Part shown: positions 1-15,157 of the stretch, one piece after another | Layout: each line of letters opens with the position of its first letter | How positions within the stretch are numbered: the stretch's first letter is position 1 | From: Reichenbachiella agariperforans | GTDB lineage: Bacteria > Bacteroidota > Bacteroidia > Cytophagales > Cyclobacteriaceae | Direction of reading: 5' to 3' | Length of the DNA: 64,000 nucleotides | Assembly: GCF_900142205.1 (NCBI RefSeq) | Contig: NZ_FRAA01000001.1 | Span: forward strand, 340,803 to 404,802 | Program-made: the position numbers and the translations under genes | Notes under the pieces: generated by a model | Database searches by the model: none | What the model saw: only the letters and a program-made list of their open reading frames with translations | What the model was told of the DNA's origin: nothing

Positions 1-3000
1 ACTTCGATAGCTACGGTATGATCCGTTGTATTGATAGTAGCTGCTCCTGTTTGATCTGTTAGTACAAAAGTTAGCACTTCAGTGGCGATACTATGAATAG
101 TAATTGCAACAATTTCAGAATCAGAGAATTCTCCATCGCTTACCAATACCTCCACCGAATGACCTCCAGCTTGTTCAGAAGAAGCTGTCCAGCTCAAAAC
201 GCCTGTAGAAGCATCTATGTTCATTCCTTTATCTTCGGAATTCGAGTCAATAGAATAGACCAATGTATTAGCTGGTAGGTCAACATCCAAAGCACTAGCC
301 GTAAAAGACAGTTCTTCTCCTACTCTACCTGTCTGCGCCCCAATAGCCGTCAATTCCGGTGCTTCATTCACATCTGTGAGCGCAACAGTGACCTCTTGCT
401 CTACAACTCTAGCTGGCTCTCCACTATCACTAACCTCGACTGTCAAAATGAATGAGGGACTGGTTTCAAAATCAAGGACTGAGGAAGTATTGACTGTTAT
501 AGACCCTTCGTTGCTGATAACAAACGCTCCGCCAGTATCCCCTCCAATAATTGCATAAGTCAATGTCTGGAAGCTATCTTCGTCTGAAGCCGTCACGGTA
601 GCTACTTCTGTTCCTTCGCTGGCATTTTCTTGCAAGTCATTGATCTCTACATTAGATACGAATGGTGCAAATTCATTAACATCATTCACCACGATCGTCA
701 CGGTTTCGATCGTCTCCAGTGCACCTATACCTTTATCTGTAATCCTTACTTGAAGCTCTACCTCTTGGATACTTTCATAATCCAAACTAAACGCCCCAAC
801 AGCATCGCCATTACCTCCTAGGGTTATCTCTCCTGTTTCAGAATCCAAAGATACAAGCCCTTCCTCACTGACAGATATGATCTCAAACGAGTCTATACCA
901 TCCGTATCATCTGACTCCAAAGTACCGATAACTGACCCTAAAAGAGAATTCTCGTCTATATCAAATTCCGTAGCAAGCAAGCTGGGGAATTGATTGACAA
1001 ATACGAATACCTCTACTGAGATTATCGTTGACAAACTCCCATCGCTCACTTCTACTTCCAAATCGTAACGCGGGGTATTTTCTACATTAATTTGACTAGC
1101 GTCTATGACAGCAGCTACTCCAGTATTCGGTCCTACAGCGAATGCACCTTCTTCGTTTCCTGACAGAATCGTATAAGTCAATACATCATTTTCTGGATCA
1201 GCGGCCAACACAGTTCCCAACACATGTCCATTTTGCACAAAGGCACTCATGTTCAAGCGCAAGTCATCTGCAATCGGTGCTTCGTTGACATCTGTCAAAT
1301 TGATCGTGATAATTTCTTCGTTAAATAATTCTCCAATCCCATCATCTGTCACCCTCACTCGAAGGTCAAAAGATGACTGGGTTTCAAAGTCTAATACAGA
1401 TTGATCCGCTACTTGTAATTCTCCATCCGTATCTATCGAGAACACATCCCTACCGCTACCTCCTACGATTGAGAATAAAAGCTCATTCTCATCATCATCA
1501 GTCGCCTGCACTACAGCTACTACTGTGCCATTTGCAGTATTTTCTTCCAAACTAAAAAACTGTTGAGCGATGACAGGAGGCGTATTCGTGAATGATGAGA
1601 TACCCACTGTAGCACTCCCTGAACGTGTCGGGTTACCATTGTCCGTGACCACTACGGTCAACGAATAATCTGTATCGGTCACAAGATTGCCATTGTCAGC
1701 AACCGTCAACACGCCTGTCGTTTCGTCTATTCCAAAAATAGAATCGTCATTCCCTACGGTAATGGCAAAGGTATGCGACTGATCAGCGTCTTCATCAGCA
1801 AAATCAATGGTTCCAATTACTAAACCATTTGGGCTGACATCACTAATATTAAAACTGACATCACTGACCTCTGGTGACTCGTTGACATCATTTAGGTTGA
1901 TAGTCACCTTCGCACTACTCGCAAGTGGGAGTTCTAGGTCTTGATCTGTGACTTCTATCTCTAGGACGAAAACGGATTGCTCCTCAAAATTTAATTGCTC
2001 TGACGCATTGACTGTGATTTCACCTGTCGAACTCATCTCAAAGGCAGCCCCTGTATTGCCACCAATTATCGTAAAATCCATACCGTCATCGTCGGTAGCG
2101 ACTACTTGTATAACTACCGTACCATTCGCTGAATTTTCATCCAATGTGATCTCCTGATCTGCTATTACTGGAAATTCATTGTCTACTATATTTATCGTAA
2201 CGATACCTGTAGAAGTCAACGCTCCTGGCCCTTGGTCTGCCGCCTGTATGGTCAGTTCAAAACTGGTAGTAGCTGATGCTTGTAGAACAGTTTCGTCAAT
2301 AACAGTTATTCCGCCAGTAACTTCATCGATAGCAAAGATTCCTTCTTCATTACCTGCAGTAATACTATATAGCTGTTTATGTCCTTCTTCATCACTGGCA
2401 ATCACCGTTTCTACTAAACTGCCGTTGGTACTAAAGCGGCTCATCGACACCTCAGCATCTTCTACAGTAGCTGCGGTATTGGATCCATCATTGATCTGAA
2501 TAGTAAACGTCCCTTCTTCATCGATACCATTCCAAAGCTGTAATTTATAATCTGTATTAGGTTCAACATCCATCGTGAACGTACCCTCTCCCTCACAAAT
2601 ATCCAGTGATTCTCCACCACATGTTTCATATCCGTCGATTTGTATGGATTCTGCCACTACCAATGGACCGTCTGCATCAGTATCTGTCAACGCCACCGTA
2701 ACAGACACCTCTACATTAGTACCCGAATTGAATCGATACCATACGTCGTTTATAGTACCGTACTGATCACATTCTTGGGTTTGAGTAAAAGCGGTCGCAT
2801 GCGCATTGGTTCCATTTGTAGGCGTTCCCGTTCCTTCTGCAAATACCGTAAGCACTTCTGCTCCTGAGCAGTTGTCATTGGCTGGAGGTGGGGTGGTGGG
2901 CACACTTGATGTGATTAAATCAAACTCACCTTTAGCGTCTCCATACCCATCCACTAACACAAAGTATTCTTCGTCTAATATGGAATTGAAACTTAGCCTA

Positions 3001-6000
3001 GCTAAATAGCCATCACCTCCACATTCGGCTTGCTCTCCATCCTCATTTCCTGCCAAACATACCAGACCTGTAGTACAAGATCCTGTATACACGCTCAAAC
3101 TCGTATCATCAAAATCATATTTATCTCCTGTGCAGGTGTTTAATGTAATGGTTTCGCCATTTCCCACCAATTTATACCAGACGCCAACCGATATCCCTCC
3201 ATTTTCGCCATCATTATCATTTCGCACTTCGTTATTACCACAACTTGAAGCCACCGCTGCATCGTTGGAGGCAAAAGTCGTATTGCCAGACACGGTCTCT
3301 CCTATGGTGACTGTGATAGCATCTGAGCAGAAGTCGTTGCTTGGCACGACATTCACCGTGACGATCCAATCCTGCGTCGTGGTTCCATCCTCGGCAGTGA
3401 CAGTAATGGTAACAGGATCGGTAAAGTCTACCACCTCCTCATTAGCCGGTGAAGTAGTTGCTCCAGGAGAAAGCGTCATCAAAGGTTGCAAAACACTTAC
3501 ATCCGTGTTTTGAGGAAGTACAATCCTCAAGGTATGGTTGGTAGTATTTACTGATGCAGACTTATTGAAGTTCAGCATTGCCAAACTAAGAATATCTGTT
3601 TCGCTGGAGCAAAACTGCCCATCATCTCCGATAGTCCAGCCATGGTCGTCGATCAAGGCCTGTCTGGCCTCTGCTCCTTTGCAAAAAGTGATGTCCTCTG
3701 CGTCCAAGGACACGTTATCATGGACTTCTTGAGCAGACCAAGCCATAAGTGCCTTATCATAATTTTGAGGGGACAGCCCTGAGTTAGAAAACATTTCACC
3801 CATATCTGTAACTGCACCGATTTCCCAAGAACTTAGGTCACTATTGAAAACTGTTGCATTTTTGAACATCTGGGATAGATTAGTAACCTTACTTACATCC
3901 CATTGAGAGATATCTTGGTTAAAGGCCTGCGCATTAGAAAACATGTCTCTCATATCCGTGACATTACCTGTTTGCCAACCGCTAATGTCTTGGTTGAAAT
4001 TTTCTGCACCAGAAAACATCAAAAACATATTCGTTGCTTCATTTACTTGCCAGTTGTCTACGTTTCCATTAAACGCTGTAGCATTTCTAAATGTACTTTC
4101 AAAAGTAGTCACCTGACTTACATCCCAGTCACTAAGGTTGCTGTCGAAGGTACTAGCATTATCAAACATAGATGACATATTGGTGACACTACTCACATCC
4201 CAATCACTAAGATCACTGTCAAAAATACTGGTATTCTCGAACATAGATGACATATTCGTAGCACTACCCACATTCCAGAGACTCAGATCGCTATTGAAAA
4301 CACTCGTTCCAAAAAACATCCGTGACATATTGATAACCTGACTGACATCCCAGTTACTTAGATCCTCATTGAAATTTTCAGCATTTTCAAACATTCTGGA
4401 CATATTGGTGACACTACTCACATCCCAGTCCCTTAGATGACCGTCAAAAACACTGGCATTCTCGAACATAGATGACATGTTGGTAACACTACCCACATTC
4501 CAGAGACTCAGGTCGCTATTAAAAACACTCGTCCCAAAAAACATTCGTGACATATTGATAACCTGACTGACATCCCAGTTATTAAGGTCCTCACTGAAAC
4601 TTTCAGCATTCTCAAACATTCTGGACATATTGGTAACCTTACTGACGTCCCATGCACTGAGATCACCATTAAAATTCGTTGCTTGAAAAAACATTTGGCT
4701 CATATCATCTACCTGACTCAGGTCAGGTAGATCTGTGGTACTAAAATCAGCACCTGGCCATTCATTAAAACTTTGATAAAAGCTTTCCCATACAATATCT
4801 CCCCATTGCAAAACATCCAGCAGCTGATCCTTGGGGTAGTTGCCAGTCAAATGAGAGAAACCTCCAAAAACCTCAAGGGTGTACGTTCCTGTTTCTGAGA
4901 AAACAGTACTGAAATCGCCATCTTCAGACCGATGGCTACCAAAGTCTGTTACATTTCCTTCATCATCTTTCCAGATATAACTAAAATCATACAGAAGATC
5001 GTCATTGAGCCCAATCGTAATATCTTCTTCTGCTGTCACAGACCATGAGGTGATAAATGGGCGCTGACTAGTAACACTCATACTGACTGTCCAATCCTGT
5101 AAAGTTGATCCATCTTCGGCTGTAATCGTATAAGTCACAGCATTGGTAAAATCTTGCAAGACACCACTTTCAGGATCGCTTATTGCTCCTTCTGACAATG
5201 TCAATACAGGCAACAAAGTGGTAACATCCACCTCTGAAAGCACCCCAAGTTCTATCGTATGATTACTATAGTCGATCATTGCTTCATCTACCTGACCTTC
5301 AGAGAGTTTAAAAGAAAGAATGTTAGTAGCTTGATCACAGGTTCCACCATCTGTGATCGTCCAATTAAAATCTTTGACAAGCCTTTCTCTTGCTACTTCA
5401 GCCTCCGTGCTACAGACTTCAATATTTCCTATACCAAAATCGACTCCCCTCTTTACCTCCTGTGCTGCCCAACTGATTAATATATCATCATAAGTAGCGG
5501 TTGAGATAGAAGTACTATTAAAAGTACCATTAAACCTTGATGCATTACTGATGTCCCATTGGCTTAAGCCATGTCCCTCAAATTTATTGGCACCATTAAA
5601 CGAATTCCCGAAATTATCGACCCCTGTGAGATCCCATGAACTTAAATCAGAATTGAAGGAACGAGCACTCTGAAAAGCCTCATTAAATTTATTGACATGA
5701 CTAACATCCCAGTGGTTAAGATCTCCATTGAAACTACCTGATTGCCGAAAAATTCTAAAAAAGCTCACCCCATCACTACTCAAAATGGGGGCGTCAATAG
5801 CAGAGAATGTACTTCCTCCCCAATTCGCAAAGGTTTGATCGAAACTCCCCCAGACAATATCCCCCCATTGATTTACATCCACCAATTGGCTCTTGGAGTA
5901 GCCTGTAAGATGAGGGAATGCACCTGCTATATACAACTCAACAGTATCAGGTTCAGTAAGTCCAAAAGCAGAGAAGTCACCCGCCGAAAACACGGTAGCA

Positions 6001-6224
6001 AAATCACCATCTACCGACTGGTGTGCACCGTCAGATATAGTGTCCCCCTCATGCACCCATGCATAGGTAAAATCATAGGTAAAATTCGTATTCAGTGCAA
6101 TGGTCACACTTTCATCAATGGCACTCAGTTTCCATGATGAGACAAATGGTTGAAAATCTTCTTGAGCCAATAGCGGTTGAAAAAGCATGAGACTCAGGAC
6201 AATAGATAGAAATGAATTTTTCAT
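1..6224 (-). CDS. Giant secreted BspA/PPC/cadherin-repeat surface protein (3' end beyond window)
   Basis: At least 2074 codons are open on the minus strand with no stop before the left edge; I checked that the frame holds at several points. The ATG at 6224 is followed by a clear signal peptide ending in LLAQ. Domains in order: a short BspA/DUF285 array (about 5.5-5.76 kb), cadherin-like beta-sandwich segments with the TAEDGSTLQDW signature, a second DUF285 array of about 12 units of roughly 25 residues (about 3.77-4.7 kb, each with a WDVS core), two PPC-like domains with WYKL/WYRF motifs (about 2.5-3.3 kb), then cadherin-type repeats to the edge (DENS, DVNE and TGEI motifs). The family is extracellular and adhesive or carbohydrate-binding. 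A T9SS sorting domain would be expected beyond the window; this is inference. The exact function is unknown. Confidence 0.88.
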   Translation of the reverse strand, partial: MKNSFLSIVLSLMLFQPLLAQEDFQPFVSSWKLSAIDESVTIALNTNFTYDFTYAWVHEGDTISDGAHQSVDGDFATVFSAGDFSAFGLTEPDTVELYIAGAFPHLTGYSKSQLVDVNQWGDIVWGSFDQTFANWGGSTFSAIDAPILSSDGVSFFRIFRQSGSFNGDLNHWDVSHVNKFNEAFQSARSFNSDLSSWDLTGVDNFGNSFNGANKFEGHGLSQWDISNASRFNGTFNSTSISTATYDDILISWAAQEVKRGVDFGIGNIEVCSTEAEVARERLVKDFNWTITDGGTCDQATNILSFKLSEGQVDEAMIDYSNHTIELGVLSEVDVTTLLPVLTLSEGAISDPESGVLQDFTNAVTYTITAEDGSTLQDWTVSMSVTSQRPFITSWSVTAEEDITIGLNDDLLYDFSYIWKDDEGNVTDFGSHRSEDGDFSTVFSETGTYTLEVFGGFSHLTGNYPKDQLLDVLQWGDIVWESFYQSFNEWPGADFSTTDLPDLSQVDDMSQMFFQATNFNGDLSAWDVSKVTNMSRMFENAESFSEDLNNWDVSQVINMSRMFFGTSVFNSDLSLWNVGSVTNMSSMFENASVFDGHLRDWDVSSVTNMSRMFENAENFNEDLSNWDVSQVINMSRMFFGTSVFNSDLSLWNVGSATNMSSMFENTSIFDSDLSDWDVSSVTNMSSMFDNASTFDSNLSDWDVSQVTTFESTFRNATAFNGNVDNWQVNEATNMFLMFSGAENFNQDISGWQTGNVTDMRDMFSNAQAFNQDISQWDVSKVTNLSQMFKNATVFNSDLSSWEIGAVTDMGEMFSNSGLSPQNYDKALMAWSAQEVHDNVSLDAEDITFCKGAEARQALIDDHGWTIGDDGQFCSSETDILSLAMLNFNKSASVNTTNHTLRIVLPQNTDVSVLQPLMTLSPGATTSPANEEVVDFTDPVTITVTAEDGTTTQDWIVTVNVVPSNDFCSDAITVTIGETVSGNTTFASNDAAVASSCGNNEVRNDNDGENGGISVGVWYKLVGNGETITLNTCTGDKYDFDDTSLSVYTGSCTTGLVCLAGNEDGEQAECGGDGYLARLSFNSILDEEYFVLVDGYGDAKGEFDLITSSVPTTPPPANDNCSGAEVLTVFAEGTGTPTNGTNAHATAFTQTQECDQYGTINDVWYRFNSGTNVEVSVTVALTDTDADGPLVVAESIQIDGYETCGGESLDICEGEGTFTMDVEPNTDYKLQLWNGIDEEGTFTIQINDGSNTAATVEDAEVSMSRFSTNGSLVETVIASDEEGHKQLYSITAGNEEGIFAIDEVTGGITVIDETVLQASATTSFELTIQAADQGPGALTSTGIVTINIVDNEFPVIADQEITLDENSANGTVVIQVVATDDDGMDFTIIGGNTGAAFEMSSTGEITVNASEQLNFEEQSVFVLEIEVTDQDLELPLASSAKVTINLNDVNESPEVSDVSFNISDVSPNGLVIGTIDFADEDADQSHTFAITVGNDDSIFGIDETTGVLTVADNGNLVTDTDYSLTVVVTDNGNPTRSGSATVGISSFTNTPPVIAQQFFSLEENTANGTVVAVVQATDDDENELLFSIVGGSGRDVFSIDTDGELQVADQSVLDFETQSSFDLRVRVTDDGIGELFNEEIITINLTDVNEAPIADDLRLNMSAFVQNGHVLGTVLAADPENDVLTYTILSGNEEGAFAVGPNTGVAAVIDASQINVENTPRYDLEVEVSDGSLSTIISVEVFVFVNQFPSLLATEFDIDENSLLGSVIGTLESDDTDGIDSFEIISVSEEGLVSLDSETGEITLGGNGDAVGAFSLDYESIQEVELQVRITDKGIGALETIETVTIVVNDVNEFAPFVSNVEINDLQENASEGTEVATVTASDEDSFQTLTYAIIGGDTGGAFVISNEGSITVNTSSVLDFETSPSFILTVEVSDSGEPARVVEQEVTVALTDVNEAPELTAIGAQTGRVGEELSFTASALDVDLPANTLVYSIDSNSEDKGMNIDASTGVLSWTASSEQAGGHSVEVLVSDGEFSDSEIVAITIHSIATEVLTFVLTDQTGAATINTTDHTVAIE

Positions 6225-6593
6225 AGCTGTCTGTATAATTTTAGATGAATTATTATCTTTCATCAAACTTTTGAGAGATGTACTTTGTAGTTGACAAGTG
6301 TCAAATACAAAGAAAAGTCAAGAGAGAATCCTTCTTTATTCGTGAACACATATCGGAAAAGGGTGACTCACTGAGTCACCCAAACCTAAGGCCTACTTTG
6401 GCCTAACCTAACCGTGTTGTGGAACTTGAATTTATCTTTTAGCACTTCAGTACATAGCGTACAAGAAATGTATGCTACATCAATTTTCCCTTTGAAAGTT
6501 TAACTATTGTAAAATTACACCGAAACAGTACTGGTCGGTTAGTACAAAACCGACCATTTCTTAAACAATTCCGACACTTTAATTGGCTTTGAG
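6225..6593. other. Intergenic region with two perfect inverted repeats
   Basis: No gene is visible. It holds a perfect 21-nt palindrome at 6361-6381 (arms GGGTGACTCA, 1-nt centre) and a hairpin at 6532-6556 (arms TGGTCGGTT / AACCGACCA, 7-nt loop). The second lies about 40 nt past the stop of the minus-strand regulator gene and may be part of its 3' end, but it lacks a U tract. The rest probably carries the promoter of the surface-protein gene. Confidence 0.55.
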
Positions 6594-8318
6594 TTAGATC
6601 ATTTCAGAAAGCGCTATGGTTTTTGCGACTGGCTCATACCTAGATTGGTTTTGCAAAAAATCTGATGGAGATAATCCAAACTCTTTTTTAAAACATTTAG
6701 AAAAATAGGAAGGGTTTGAGAACCCCATTTTAAAAGCAATTTCTGTGATATTGTAATCATGGTGACCAAGGATTAACTCCTTGGCACGGTGTAGCCTTAC
6801 CGAACTGATCAGTTGATTAGGGGATTTATTGGTAATCGCCTTGAGTTTTCGTTGCAACTGACGCTCACTAACACCTACTTCTCTACACAACATTTCTACA
6901 CCAAAGCATTCATTACTTATATTTTCTTCAATGCTCTCTAGAACATTCTCCAAGAATGACCCTCTTCTATCTAAATTACTCGCCTTAAAATCAACATGAT
7001 ATTTATCAGCACTCGTATTATCCTTCACGTCAAATAACAGCATTTTTTCACCTAACACAGTCTCAAACACCGATGTATGTGGAACGAAATTCAATCCCGC
7101 ACCTGACAGTAAATGTTTCACTGTTTGTGTGATCAATATTTGATTAGGTTGGGTGTGCTTTAGAATCTCATTGACCAACAGTTCTGTTTCATCACGAACG
7201 AAATGTACTTGATCTACGGCACCCTCTAGAATATGAATCCCTATAGCCAATTCGAGTGCTAACCCTTTCACTGCATTTTGTAAATCTAAGCTACAATGCA
7301 CCGCTTTATTCGGCCCTTCGAAAGCCGCAATGAATACACCCTGATCGAATTGAATAATACTGCCACGATGCTGCCCTACAAATTGGCCTACGATCTCTTG
7401 ATGACTCATGTCATCTGATGGGATAACCCGTCCAGTCAAAATGGTGAGAAGTCTTTTTTGATAGCTTACCTTTGGTATGACATGCGTCACAAATGCTCGT
7501 ATTTCTTCCAATACCTCTTCGGTATTGCCTGCCCAAAATAGATGGTCACTCCCCTCAAATTCTACGAAAATCGAATCCTCTATGCGATCAGCAATGAATC
7601 TTCCCTCTTCTATTTTGACATCTACATCATGGGTGCGTTGCATAAGTAACGTAGGTACTTTGATCGAACCCAAGATATCCACAATATCCACCTCTGTATT
7701 CATTTTGGTCAATACCATAGCCGCACTCGGGCTAGCCCCAGATCTAAAATAATTAGCCAGCCAATCCATAAAAACCCGATCATTGGCTAACGAAGGAGCA
7801 AGAGACTCTAGTCTCATTTCTCCACTTCCCCAGCTGTTTTCGATCATCTCATAGACTTTCTGTCGTTCTTCATCTGTGGGTGCCCAAGGATAGTCAGGAG
7901 AGTACCTTCGTTTAGCAAACGCACCAAATGTGATCAAGGATATTGTTCTGTTAGGATAGGTCGCTGCAAACAATGCCGACACAGAACCACCCTCTGAATG
8001 TCCAAACAACACTGCTTTGGGAGAGCCTACTGCATCCATCACGGCTCTGATATCATCCATTCGTTCCTCGATGGTTGATAACTCTACGATACGATCTGAC
8101 AGACCCGTACCACGCTTATCAAACAAAATGAGTCTAGCAAACTTGCCCACTTCCTCAAAGAAATGAACCAACTCTGGGCATGCCCACATCCAGTCTATAT
8201 TGGATACCCATCCAGGAATGTATACCAAATCGATGGGACCAGATCCATATACCTGATAAGCTATATTGATATGACCGCTTTTAGTGTATTGCGTTGCTGG
8301 TTTCATCGGTTCAATCAT
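6594..8318 (-). CDS. Three-domain regulator: alpha/beta hydrolase, degenerate class III cyclase-like domain, AraC HTH
   Basis: Numbering follows the longest 580-residue form (TTG at 8336); I prefer the ATG at 8318, with another ATG 12 nt downstream. Residues 15-290 are an alpha/beta hydrolase with nucleophile motif GHSEGG (Ser114) and probable Asp237 and His265 (GSDH). Residues 294-438 align by eye with the guanylate-cyclase homology domain that commonly follows such hydrolases (RGSIIQFDQGVFIAAFEGP, QNAV, AIGIHILEG), but both metal-binding Asp positions are lost, so it is probably a sensor or scaffold rather than an enzyme. Residues 465-562 are a two-HTH AraC domain ending in MGFSNPSYFSKCFKKEFG. 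The inferred role is a cytosolic transcription factor sensing a small hydrophobic ligand. The hydrolase-cyclase pair is known; replacing catalysis with an AraC output is unusual. It is a single gene, with no partner nearby. Confidence 0.88.
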   Translation of the reverse strand: MIEPMKPATQYTKSGHINIAYQVYGSGPIDLVYIPGWVSNIDWMWACPELVHFFEEVGKFARLILFDKRGTGLSDRIVELSTIEERMDDIRAVMDAVGSPKAVLFGHSEGGSVSALFAATYPNRTISLITFGAFAKRRYSPDYPWAPTDEERQKVYEMIENSWGSGEMRLESLAPSLANDRVFMDWLANYFRSGASPSAAMVLTKMNTEVDIVDILGSIKVPTLLMQRTHDVDVKIEEGRFIADRIEDSIFVEFEGSDHLFWAGNTEEVLEEIRAFVTHVIPKVSYQKRLLTILTGRVIPSDDMSHQEIVGQFVGQHRGSIIQFDQGVFIAAFEGPNKAVHCSLDLQNAVKGLALELAIGIHILEGAVDQVHFVRDETELLVNEILKHTQPNQILITQTVKHLLSGAGLNFVPHTSVFETVLGEKMLLFDVKDNTSADKYHVDFKASNLDRRGSFLENVLESIEENISNECFGVEMLCREVGVSERQLQRKLKAITNKSPNQLISSVRLHRAKELILGHHDYNITEIAFKMGFSNPSYFSKCFKKEFGLSPSDFLQNQSRYEPVAKTIALSEMI

Positions 8319-8523
8319 TTTGTGTACAACGATCAAATATCAAAACTAGTATGGGTAGGCAATATCTAGTACTCCTCAGATGCATAGGAGCATTTTTTGG
8401 CTCGGTCATTTTTCTCGGTATTTATGGTTTGACTATTGTATAACTGCTGCTACAAAAGTACTTGCCTAGATGCTCGCTAACCAGTAGACACGGGTAAACG
8501 GAATATACAATGAGTGAACGACT

Positions 8524-9240
8524 CTAAAACACGGTCAAACGATCCATAAATGGTTTCCTATATACCTTACCAATAGGCAACGGGCTGCCGTTGACAAAAA
8601 CCACACTGTGCTCGATGCGATCGATTTTCCTCAAATTCACTAGAAAGGTCTTATGAATACGACAATACCCCTGATCACCGAGAATATCCTCTACATTCTT
8701 TAGCGTCTGAGACACCACATACTTGTCTTCTTCTGTATAAAAAATCGAATAGTTGTCTGATGCCTCTACATAGATGACCTGATTAAAGTCAAGTGGAACG
8801 ATGGCATTATTGTTCCGAACGAATAGATTGAGCTGCTCCGTATTAGGTTTGCTCACGGGTTCAATTTGCACTTTGGCTAGTGCCATATCCACCGCCACTT
8901 GGATATCCTCATCTTTGAAGGGTTTGACTATATACCCAGATGGGCTAGCATTTTTTGCCCGGGTGATTGTTGTCTTATCATATAGCGATGAAATAAATAT
9001 GAATGGTACCGCTCTCTTTTGACGAATGAGCTGCGCCAATTGAATCCCATCTTTGTCTCCTTTGATTTTGATATCCAACAGCACAAGGCTCACCTCTTTT
9101 TGATCCAAAACTGCCAAAGCCTGATCCGCCGAATCACAAATACCCACGACCTCATGACCCATTTGCTCCAAGTAGATCGCTATGTCATCTGCAATAATAG
9201 GTTGATCCTCTACTATCATTATTTGTCGTTTTTTATCCAT
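8524..9240 (-). CDS. LytTR-family response regulator
   Basis: 238 residues, cytosolic. The receiver domain (about 5-120) has acidic residues E11/D12, phospho-acceptor Asp56 in LVLLDIK and Lys106 in IVKPFKD. The LytTR DNA-binding domain (about 140-236) has the signatures YVEASDNYSIFY and CRIHKTFLVNL. It starts 2 nt after the end of the upstream histidine kinase gene, so the two form a tight kinase-regulator operon. The target genes cannot be read from the sequence; LytTR proteins usually bind direct repeats upstream of their own or neighbouring promoters. Confidence 0.95.
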   Translation of the reverse strand: MDKKRQIMIVEDQPIIADDIAIYLEQMGHEVVGICDSADQALAVLDQKEVSLVLLDIKIKGDKDGIQLAQLIRQKRAVPFIFISSLYDKTTITRAKNASPSGYIVKPFKDEDIQVAVDMALAKVQIEPVSKPNTEQLNLFVRNNNAIVPLDFNQVIYVEASDNYSIFYTEEDKYVVSQTLKNVEDILGDQGYCRIHKTFLVNLRKIDRIEHSVVFVNGSPLPIGKVYRKPFMDRLTVF

Positions 9241-9242
9241 GC

Positions 9243-11168
9243 TTAGAATGTTAGTCTAAAGGTTGTTCCCTTCTCATGTTGCATCGTGATCGTCCCTCCC
9301 AGCCCTCTAGAGATGGACCTTACAATCCTATAGCCATAAGACTTCAATAGATCATCTGGTGAAGCTATACCCACACCATCGTCCGAGACTTCTAGTTCAT
9401 GAATCTCCTCTACTTTTCGGAGAGATAGAGAAACCACCCCTTGTTTGGTATCAGGAAAAGCATATTTTAAGGCATTGGACACGAGCTCGTTGATAATCAA
9501 ACCAATCTGAATAGTGGTATCGATTGACAAGTCCACCATCTCTATCTTACTTGAAAACCTCACTCTCTCCTCAGACACATCGTAGGATTGAAACAAAGTG
9601 TTGGCAAGCTCGTGAAGATATTCCTTGACATTTACCTGAGACAGATTTTCGGATTGATACAGCTTCTCGTGAACCAATGCCATGGATTGTACTCTATTCC
9701 TACCTTCTAACACAGCCTTCTTGGCCAGCTCGTCATTCAGATATTTGGACTGGATATTGAGTAAACTACTCACCACTTGTAAATTATTCTTGACTCGATG
9801 ATGAATCTCTCGCAGCAGGACTTCACGCTCATCCAAAGCCTCAGATATTGTCTTATTTTTCTTTTGAAGTATGGACTTGGCCTTTTGACTCAATCGGTAG
9901 TAGCGATAGATCACAAAGGTAAAAATCAAAGTAATCAGCAACCCAGCTATCGTTACATACTTCATCAACCGCTGCTGATCTAGTTGGGCGTTGACCGACA
10001 GCAATTCGGATTGCTTTTGAAACTCCAGTGAGTCACGCTCTTGCTCGAACGTATAATTAAGCTCCAAAGTGGTCAGTTGCTCCGTCATGCCTTCATTGAA
10101 TAGCTCAGTATTGAGTTCAAACGTTATCTCCAAATAATGTAAGGCTTGATCAGAAGCACCTTTAGATTTGTACAACTCAAATAGCGACTCGGCTAAACTC
10201 ATTTTGGAGGTTTTTAAATCATACTCTTCTGCCAGCTCATATCCCTCTTTCCATTTTTGCTCGGCAAGGTCGTATTGTCCCTGCTTAAAATAGATTTGTC
10301 CCATAGAATACAAAGATTGACAAACGCCCTCTGGGATATGACAAACTACAGACCAGTCATAGCTAATTTTCAAGTACTGAAGTGCCTCATCCAACCTGCC
10401 CAACTCAAGGTAGGTATGCCCTATATTTATTGCTGGATATGGCAATCTACATGACTCGCCCAGCGAATCCAACAATCTGTAAGACTGCAAACTATAGTTC
10501 AACGCTTCTGGATAATTTTCAAGACTCATATGAATCAACCCAATGTTGCCCAGCGTAGATGCTTGGTCCATCAAAACGCCCATGTACTCTTGTATGTCGA
10601 GCGTTTGCTGGTAATAATTCAGCGCTTTGTCATAGTTTTTTTGACGAAAATAAAGGGTACCAATACTATTAAGCACGTTGGAAACACCAATAGTATCGCC
10701 TAAGGCACGTCTTATTTTAAGAGCCTCTAAGTGGCTCTCCAATGCTTTGGGATATCTACTCATGACTCTATACACTTTACCTACGTCATTTAGGATAATA
10801 GCTCTCCAAGCAGAATCGTATACGAATCCATTGACAACCAAAGAACTATCATAGTAATCCAAAGCATACTCGAATTGTCCTGAATTATGATAATTTAAAC
10901 CCAACAAATAAAAAGCTCTTCTTTTAGCCGCTTGATCGTTGATCTTTTTTGCTATGGACAATGCCTCTTGGGATGCCCAGATAGAGGAATCATTGCTTTG
11001 ATAAAAATACGCATAAGAGAGGTCATTAAGAATCTGCACCTTAGATGTGTCCTCTTTGTGGAGAGAAAGCGCATGTCGCAGACTATCTATGTTTTCGTTT
11101 GACCTAGCATCATTTGTCATCACGAACATCGTGACAACCAAATGCCAGAATAAAGCAGTATTTCTCAT
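9243..11168 (-). CDS. TPR-containing membrane sensor histidine kinase (HisKA_2 type)
   Basis: 641 residues. An N-terminal signal or membrane segment is followed by tetratricopeptide repeats over about residues 40-380 (repeated ALNYYQ/ALEYL-like helices, periplasmic by analogy), one transmembrane helix near 402-424 and a short coiled coil. A HisKA_2 dimerisation domain follows, with the phospho-acceptor in REIHHRVKNN (about His456), then an HATPase domain with N-box NELVSNALKYAF (about 560), a DDGVG G1 box and a GLGG G2 box. It is translated from the ATG at 11168 and is followed 2 nt later by its LytTR response regulator. The HisKA_2 plus LytTR pairing is common in Bacteroidota. The signal is unknown. 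Confidence 0.94.
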   Translation of the reverse strand: MRNTALFWHLVVTMFVMTNDARSNENIDSLRHALSLHKEDTSKVQILNDLSYAYFYQSNDSSIWASQEALSIAKKINDQAAKRRAFYLLGLNYHNSGQFEYALDYYDSSLVVNGFVYDSAWRAIILNDVGKVYRVMSRYPKALESHLEALKIRRALGDTIGVSNVLNSIGTLYFRQKNYDKALNYYQQTLDIQEYMGVLMDQASTLGNIGLIHMSLENYPEALNYSLQSYRLLDSLGESCRLPYPAINIGHTYLELGRLDEALQYLKISYDWSVVCHIPEGVCQSLYSMGQIYFKQGQYDLAEQKWKEGYELAEEYDLKTSKMSLAESLFELYKSKGASDQALHYLEITFELNTELFNEGMTEQLTTLELNYTFEQERDSLEFQKQSELLSVNAQLDQQRLMKYVTIAGLLITLIFTFVIYRYYRLSQKAKSILQKKNKTISEALDEREVLLREIHHRVKNNLQVVSSLLNIQSKYLNDELAKKAVLEGRNRVQSMALVHEKLYQSENLSQVNVKEYLHELANTLFQSYDVSEERVRFSSKIEMVDLSIDTTIQIGLIINELVSNALKYAFPDTKQGVVSLSLRKVEEIHELEVSDDGVGIASPDDLLKSYGYRIVRSISRGLGGTITMQHEKGTTFRLTF

Positions 11169-13966: not shown

Positions 13967-15157
13967 CTATAAATCCTCAGGCAAGTATTTGACCATTAAT
14001 GCATCGTATTCTTCTGGAAAATAGGCTTTCAAAACAGCGACATAATAATTGTGCGGTTTGTGTTGATAAAACATAGGAGGCCTTTCGTAATATGATTCAT
14101 CCACAAAATAACCTTCTGAATCTCTAACAGCTGTTTCGGCCAACGAATCGTAAGACGCTGCTACCCATTCTTTGTACATCCTGGGATAGGCAAACGGATG
14201 TAGCGTAATCAGTTGCCCCGTCTGAAAATAGTTGATATCATCTACATAAGGAGGGAATACAATATCTCCTAAATCTTTGGCCAGTCGTTCGCTTGCTGAC
14301 ACACTCATGGATTGAACCCTATTAGTCGCGAACCCTTCAAATGTCTGAACGAATGCGCTTTTCAACAATAGCCCTGTATCAAAACCATTTTCATCCTCTA
14401 ATAGAGAAAGAATTCCTCTTTTTGACAATGCCTTTTCTTCCATATAGTTCATAGGTAGTTTAGGCACTGGATCAGCTGGATTGATCACACGCATACTCCA
14501 GCCTGTCTCGGCATATTTCTCATTATATGCCTGCGCAAACCGTTTGTTTCCCACCATGGGATTAGCAAATGAATAATTCTTGAATTGGTTTCTGGAGGAG
14601 ATGGTTTCCTTAGGTAGACCATCTAGGTATGCCAACAGCAAGGCAGACAAAGCACCTCCCTGACTATGTCCAGTTAGATAAATATCGAAGATCCCCTGCC
14701 TGTTGAGTGACCGTATCTGTTCTAAGACAGATGCATGCAAATATCCCAATCCGAGCATATACCCTGAATGTACCGCAGCTCCCTCAACATTAGACACCAC
14801 ATAGTTGAAAGGTTCGTTCTTTATTTTGATATCCCCAGCAGCAGGGATCATGGCAGAGGTAAAATTCGCCAACCAGCTTTTTTGATCAGCAGTTGATCCC
14901 CTAAAGCAAATTACACCATGATTACCATTGGTGTAGACCTGATACTTGTTATCCATCCCAAAAACACCAGACGTAAAGATTTTTTCATACCCCGAAGGAA
15001 TAATCACCGTATCACTATCGTAGAGTTCGAGGTAGGTAAAACTATTGCACAGCGCAATGAAATCTTTAGCTTCCTGTGCTTTGAATCCTGGATACATCTG
15101 AGCATAAAGAGGTAGGCTAAATACTAGAGACAGGAAAAATGCTATAGGTTTGCGCAT
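13967..15157 (-). CDS. Secreted class 3 lipase-family protein
   Basis: 396 residues with a signal peptide (1-19, ending PLYAQ). The alpha/beta hydrolase core carries the lipase-class-3 nucleophile elbow GHSQGGA (Ser165), an upstream VICFRGS strand, a probable catalytic Asp in NPADPVPKLP and a C-terminal HNYY that could supply the His. No T9SS sorting domain or lipobox is seen, so it is probably periplasmic, or exported by a route I cannot see. The predicted activity is hydrolysis of acylglycerols or other esters; the substrate is unknown. It converges on hrpB with a 3-nt gap, so no terminator lies between them. Confidence 0.9.
   Translation of the reverse strand: MRKPIAFFLSLVFSLPLYAQMYPGFKAQEAKDFIALCNSFTYLELYDSDTVIIPSGYEKIFTSGVFGMDNKYQVYTNGNHGVICFRGSTADQKSWLANFTSAMIPAAGDIKIKNEPFNYVVSNVEGAAVHSGYMLGLGYLHASVLEQIRSLNRQGIFDIYLTGHSQGGALSALLLAYLDGLPKETISSRNQFKNYSFANPMVGNKRFAQAYNEKYAETGWSMRVINPADPVPKLPMNYMEEKALSKRGILSLLEDENGFDTGLLLKSAFVQTFEGFATNRVQSMSVSASERLAKDLGDIVFPPYVDDINYFQTGQLITLHPFAYPRMYKEWVAASYDSLAETAVRDSEGYFVDESYYERPPMFYQHKPHNYYVAVLKAYFPEEYDALMVKYLPEDL

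Follow-up and report, generated by a model that had tools for sequence, protein, structure and literature searches.

The gene at positions 6594 to 8318 (minus strand) of the window, by which we mean the whole 64-kb stretch of DNA that was analysed, encodes a protein of 574 amino acids that joins an alpha/beta hydrolase, a class III cyclase-like domain lacking the metal-binding aspartates and an AraC-type DNA-binding domain. Since an intact esterase-like domain, a dead cyclase and a DNA-binding domain are found together and the relatives' genes often lie beside a conserved site, this protein of a marine bacterium looks like a one-protein switch that responds to a small molecule and activates adjacent genes, many of which encode secreted or surface proteins, and it is probably a ligand-sensing cytoplasmic one-component activator in which the pseudocyclase is a scaffold and the AraC domain acts at a tandem site. 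The domains, the missing cyclase residues and the conserved geometry between site and promoter were established by computation.

Domain layout and loss of the cyclase active site

The three-part layout, which had been proposed from the sequence in a preliminary description, was confirmed by domain, profile and fold comparisons. The hydrolase domain (residues 9-281; 7476 to 8294, minus strand) has the alpha/beta hydrolase fold and a Ser-Asp-His triad formed by S108 (7995-7997), D231 (7626-7628) and H259 (7542-7544). The class III cyclase-like domain (residues 285-435) lies at 7014 to 7466 and the AraC-type DNA-binding domain (residues 454-558) at 6645 to 6959, both on the minus strand, the latter with a Pfam match to HTH_18 over residues 477-556 (E 4.3e-25). 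Upstream on the same strand are two open reading frames assigned by eye, a response regulator with LytTR-like output (8524 to 9240) and a histidine kinase with repeats (9243 to 11168; cluster c0), and a secreted lipase-like frame, again by eye, is found near the regulator gene at 13967 to 15157.

In a single scan of genome contigs, 77 loci were kept, 68 of which encode proteins of 540-600 amino acids; these 68 and the window protein (A1) make up the 69-member family alignment. The search for homologues with the same three domains suggested earlier was thus successful, and because 68 full-length relatives exist, mis-assembly or chance fusion was dropped as an explanation. The family is mostly Bacteroidota by label, with one Balneolaceae member and two loci labelled Alphaproteobacteria (L002 and L005, both metagenome bins). 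Its presence is patchy, with 5 of 59 relatives carrying the gene at 1e-150, the window's own genome included. The regulator of G004, a genome of the window's genus, looks the same as the Reichenbachiella faecimaris protein (L007). Across the phylum, a whole-protein search found 6 of 395 genomes at 1e-40, one of them with a hydrolase-AraC form that has no cyclase part; as this search scored three candidates per genome and might miss relatives, it was repeated with the hydrolase alone, which gave 13 of 395 genomes at 1e-25, one of these (G337) being just an 81-residue open frame.

The triad is invariant in all 69 members, so that the complete triad claimed at the outset is borne out, and conservation among the three domains is highest in the hydrolase (mean pairwise identity 0.78, against 0.62 for the HTH and 0.35 for the cyclase-like part, the least conserved). 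In a fold search, the solved structures closest to the hydrolase were active esterases and haloperoxidases, with D14, KAI2 and RsbQ just behind, a closeness that suggests that the hydrolase may be used as a receptor.

The full-length fold search was taken up by hydrolases, and the middle region was therefore folded alone; comparison with class III cyclases then gave a cyclase fold, as anticipated, and sequence homology extends over the domain. Pfam found no match to the cyclase part of the window protein, and the assignment therefore comes from profile and fold comparisons. When the 69 middle regions were scanned singly, Guanylate_cyc matched three; a weak match to ALS_ss_C in 10 of the 69 (best E 0.0043) was judged to be chance. 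In the alignments, R297 (7428-7430) and G327 (7338-7340) occupy the places of the two metal aspartates, consistent with the loss noted previously, and intact catalytic residues were not found. An aspartate is present at 297 in one member and at 327 in four members out of 69, and position 297 carries a basic residue (R, K or H) in 48 and Q in 13. The catalytic (transition-state) arginine was absent from 21/21 family rows and present in 8/8 intact cyclases of the same alignment, the segment after the first strand is missing in most of the family rows shown, and only two columns of the domain are invariant. The family hence lacks both the pair of metal aspartates and the transition-state arginine of an active class III cyclase and, judged from its residues, the domain is dead as a cyclase.

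A predicted tandem operator and its candidate target genes

A word scan of the intergenic DNA that separates the gene from the following one on its strand showed enrichment of TGTCGGA (21 of 58 regions, against 0.8 expected from shuffles). A tandem matrix, consisting of the half-site TGTCGGAATTGTTM twice with a spacing of mostly 21 bp, was tested by leaving each region out. Downstream of the gene, a site was found in 38/58 regions at p<=0.01 and in 41/58 at p<=0.05, of which 40 share the orientation of the gene, and 17/58 regions had no site at p<=0.05; in the upstream control regions, to which the full matrix was applied, the corresponding numbers were 3/72 and 6/72. At a score of at least 22, 68 sites were found in 71 loci (877,688 bases), compared to none in one dinucleotide-shuffled and none in a reversed copy, although the loci are related to one another, so that their sites do not count as independent, and also served to fit the matrix. 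A generic direct-repeat test gave a weak signal (6/58 downstream, 3/72 upstream). Among the sites lying away from the gene end for which a gene table was available (ORFs of at least 80 amino acids), 24 of 25 are intergenic.

When two sites from the window's own genome were added to the 68, TAnnTTTG, which we take to be the Bacteroidota -7 element and which played no part in finding the sites, occurred within 95 nt of 57 of the 70 sites and at an offset of 37 or 38 bp from the start of the downstream half-site in 52 of them. In the window, the predicted operator is TGTCGGAATTGTTT - 7 nt - GGTCGGTTTTGTAC (6542 to 6576, minus strand), with half-sites 21 bp apart, and lies 17 nt past the stop codon; the predicted -7 element, TAATTTTA (6510 to 6517, minus strand), is TAnnTTTG with its last base changed, and its offset from the start of the downstream half-site is 38 bp. 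Two intergenic regions had been put forward for DNA-binding tests: 6225-6593 does contain this predicted operator, whereas in 8319-8523, as in the rest of the 64-kb window, the matrix found no site scoring at least 14. A second site in the window's genome was found by the matrix, applied to the window and one 19.6-kb stretch, upstream of the SprB-repeat/YceI operon.

Among five gene-bearing genomes not knowingly used in training, the matrix placed a site at the end of the gene in four (G003, G165, G184 and G196, the exception being G026). Pattern searches over whole genomes served poorly in place of the matrix. With up to two mismatches, the pattern matched 4/5 gene-bearing relatives, compared to 1/54 relatives without a match at 1e-150 (59 genomes); for the match in G025, the stretch printed shows no -7 element at the appropriate spacing. 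Allowing up to three mismatches, the window's genome has a single match, beside the gene, and 19/59 relatives and 117/395 phylum genomes were matched, a level that is mostly noise given the number of matched relatives. By reading of the list, 12 of the 395 phylum genomes match at up to two mismatches and do not carry the gene, and 4 of the 5 phylum genomes with a full-length gene had no match at three mismatches, the matrix finding a spacing of 19 or 23 instead. A composite pattern of operator and -7 element matched 3/59 relatives, namely G004 (five matches, within about 14 kb of the gene), G035 (two) and G020 (one), with none in the reversed control; two of these relatives carry the gene and G020 has no gene match at 1e-150. 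The window's own genome is missed because its -7 elements deviate. In the phylum, the composite pattern was not enriched, with matches in 2/395 genomes, neither gene-bearing, and eight matches by hand count in the reversed control; in the gene-bearing phylum genomes, either the spacing differs or the -7 element deviates.

A few further sites and words were seen. Upstream of the gene, the most strongly enriched word, GGGTAGC, occurs in 8/72 regions (0.8 in shuffles), an enrichment weaker than that of the downstream word, and is perhaps a site for another regulator. In L003 an operator lies upstream of the regulator gene itself (about 5648), where autoregulation is possible. A good match to operator and -7 element (L188) precedes an ORF that is peptide-synthetase-like by eye in G020.

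The predicted target nearest to the operator in the window is a giant secreted protein with DUF285 repeats (1 to 6224, minus strand; likely start 6224), which runs past the window edge. On the same strand downstream, this gene is followed in the window's genome by SprB-repeat-like, YceI-like, DUF5777 and Lipoprotein_15-like genes, named by likeness to tested genes of L003 and, for DUF5777, also directly; the second predicted site precedes the SprB-like gene, and DUF5777 occurs once in this genome. Over the window and the 71 loci, with neighbour clusters identified by Pfam on representatives, the YceI and DUF5777 clusters were each present in 17 loci (14 downstream and 3 upstream), the Lipoprotein_15 cluster in 11, the LRR_5-type cluster in 17 and clusters of contractile injection genes in 6, with Pvc16_N, sheath and tube identified in L036. 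The operator with TAnnTTTG stands directly before the first injection gene in three loci (L036, L039 and L041) and, by eye but with p 0.109, before the injection genes of L038; it was not found before the first injection gene of L022 and L025. The predicted site thus adjoins genes that are not homologous to one another: the YceI operon, LRR_5 and DUF285 giants, Lipoprotein_15 genes and contractile injection operons. By a crude sign of export, a strongly hydrophobic start, 39 of 62 ORFs next to sites would be exported and the other 23 lack it. Small secreted-looking proteins with TGPxAKN-like motifs also follow the operator (L004 9295-9603, L018 9830-10138, L023 7829-8161, L032 3881-4207 and L061 7899-8240), and that of L004 had no Pfam match. 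Overall, the predicted targets of the family are giant secreted proteins, the YceI-DUF5777 operon and contractile injection systems (three loci, and a fourth by eye).

Hydrolase relatives with different outputs

Relatives of the hydrolase are joined to different outputs. Both aspartates and the arginine are retained in all 11 inspected relatives in which no DNA-binding domain was recognised: the eight with a C-terminal cyclase (L112, L113, L114, L115, L118, L122, L123 and L124), L200, and L120 and L199, in which the cyclase is in front. The absence of a DNA-binding domain was judged by Pfam for L113, L114, L115, L118 and L120, and for the remaining six from their length and sequence; L119, although retrieved and scanned, is not among the tabulated relatives. 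When ten of the intact proteins (all but L112) were aligned, D, GDG and R were invariant. Where a DNA-binding domain and a cyclase part occur together, the cyclase is degenerate, and this holds in three lineages: the AraC family described here, the LuxR-type proteins L116 and L117 (in L116 the arginine and the second aspartate persist), and L125, which by eye has a SARP/BTAD-regulator-like region at its N-terminus. A hydrolase joined to a DNA-binding domain and no cyclase was found by Pfam in L102 (AraC) and L121 (OmpR-type), and by eye in L104, L105, L107, L109, L197 and L198 (LuxR-like) and L126 (SARP-like). The hydrolase of L102 is 60% identical to that of the window.

In a tree of the hydrolase domains, L116 and L117 group with the intact L114 and L115 (95/87), L125 with the intact L113 (100/98), and the Bacteroidota AraC proteins with L102 in one clade (100/100), in a tree with long branches, several weak deep forks and unsettled bootstrap, sampled from plasmid records and one phylum. 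If an intact ancestor is assumed, the cyclase must therefore have decayed at least three times. It is conceivable, and we put it forward tentatively, that a widespread bacterial hydrolase module sensing a shared diffusible signal first drove a cyclase and was switched at least three times to direct DNA binding (AraC, LuxR and SARP-like), the cyclase decaying to a scaffold, and that the Bacteroidota hydrolase reads one signal across genera, switching on surface proteins and, in some of them, contractile injection systems.

Other features of these relatives were seen in passing. Two identical-looking hydrolase-AraC genes without a cyclase part are present in genome G160 (L102, 1501-2694, and L110), and a small ORF that is SnoaL/NTF2-like by eye follows the hydrolase-AraC gene in L095. 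L116 and L117 are located on Shinella and Phyllobacterium plasmids, and in both cases the genes that follow encode a carboxymuconolactone decarboxylase and an NTF2-like protein. In the hydrolase-LuxR relatives L105, L106, L107 and L109, a cysteine replaces the nucleophilic serine (GFCQGG or GLCQGG), and in L108 a related hydrolase is fused, by eye, to a serine/threonine-kinase-like and an ATPase-like region.

Mechanism, alternatives and known systems

In the mechanism we favour, the hydrolase domain, which we infer to be the ligand sensor, would bind and perhaps slowly hydrolyse a small ester- or lactone-like ligand. In this view, the cyclase-like domain would be a leftover of a hydrolase-cyclase ancestor that makes no cyclic nucleotide; its most likely role is to keep the dimer together and to connect the sensor with the AraC domain. 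The AraC domain would bind two direct half-sites about 21 bp apart, the downstream one at a fixed distance from the -7 element, and activate nearby genes, which in this genome would be the SprB-repeat/YceI/DUF5777/Lipoprotein_15-like operon and the gene for the giant secreted DUF285 protein. The analysis supports a one-component regulator that contains a dead cyclase fold, as first described, while ligand sensing by the hydrolase is put forward conditionally and a role of the dead cyclase as transmitter is no more than plausible. Since L102 is a natural relative with no cyclase part, that part is dispensable for pairing the hydrolase with AraC, and a scaffold for dimerisation or spacing, handed down from a hydrolase-cyclase ancestor, explains the domain no less well than a transmitter.

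Alternatively, the hydrolase could be a working catabolic enzyme and the AraC part could respond to its product or substrate, making a self-regulating pathway and no receptor. The full triad in 69/69 members and the active esterases among the nearest solved folds would suit such an enzyme, but the neighbouring genes examined form no ester catabolic pathway and the hydrolase is more conserved than the other domains, whereas the targets vary, and we consider this reading improbable, if less so than the two that follow. It is unlikely that metal-free nucleotide binding has persisted in the cyclase-like domain and makes it a second sensor: the second metal and catalytic arginine positions are not conserved, and a pairwise identity of 0.35 with two invariant columns also speaks against it, even though residue 297 is basic in most members (Q in 13) and R is also found at the equivalent position of both LuxR-type proteins. 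More doubtful still is an assignment of the tandem site to another regulator such as the neighbouring LytTR-type response regulator, although a regulator encoded elsewhere in the genome is conceivable. Regulators of the LytTR type recognise direct repeats that recur roughly every two helix turns, which a period of about 21 bp would suit, and the LytTR-like gene (by eye) adjoins the hydrolase-AraC gene; however, the response regulator cluster (c15) has 5 proteins in all compared neighbourhoods, whereas the site accompanies the hydrolase-AraC gene in about 40/58 loci, and among relatives the closer pattern matches track that gene. Binding of the tandem site, and activation from it, by the hydrolase-AraC protein itself is what we infer.

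The favoured mechanism provides a testable operator and target gene set for a family that was recognised here by its domains alone. It would link hydrolase-type sensing directly to bacterial transcription and suggests that DNA binding has repeatedly taken the place of a second messenger as output. Should the strongly conserved hydrolase recognise a single ligand, its identification would reveal a signal common to many marine Bacteroidota that governs surface proteins and, in some, injection systems. The component parts are of known kinds. No hydrolase - pseudocyclase - AraC protein was described in the titles and abstract openings retrieved from openly licensed PubMed Central papers, and these likewise gave no pointer to the predicted operator or to the repeated exchange of outputs.

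The pairing of a hydrolase with a class III cyclase was correctly named as known in the preliminary description. The hydrolase - adenylate cyclase of the Rv1900c / LipJ type (NCBIfam NF058673; PDB 1ybt and 1ybu) has the same domain order, with homology over residues 6-413 of the window protein, but the window protein lacks the metal aspartates and has an added AraC domain; it scored 233.9 bits against NF058673 (LipJ bifunctional lipase/adenylate cyclase), below the cut-off of 800, and has lost the cyclase residues. According to an excerpt of PMC4886424, the DUF2652 proteins of Bacteroidetes are also cyclase-like and keep the metal aspartates that are lost in the window family. The likeness of the window hydrolase to the alpha/beta hydrolase receptors D14/KAI2 and RsbQ is a similarity of fold only. 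With the one-component activators of the AraC/XylS type, the protein shares the C-terminal HTH_18 and predicted direct-repeat half-sites about 21 bp apart beside a promoter, and it differs from them in its sensor part, an alpha/beta hydrolase followed by a degenerate cyclase.
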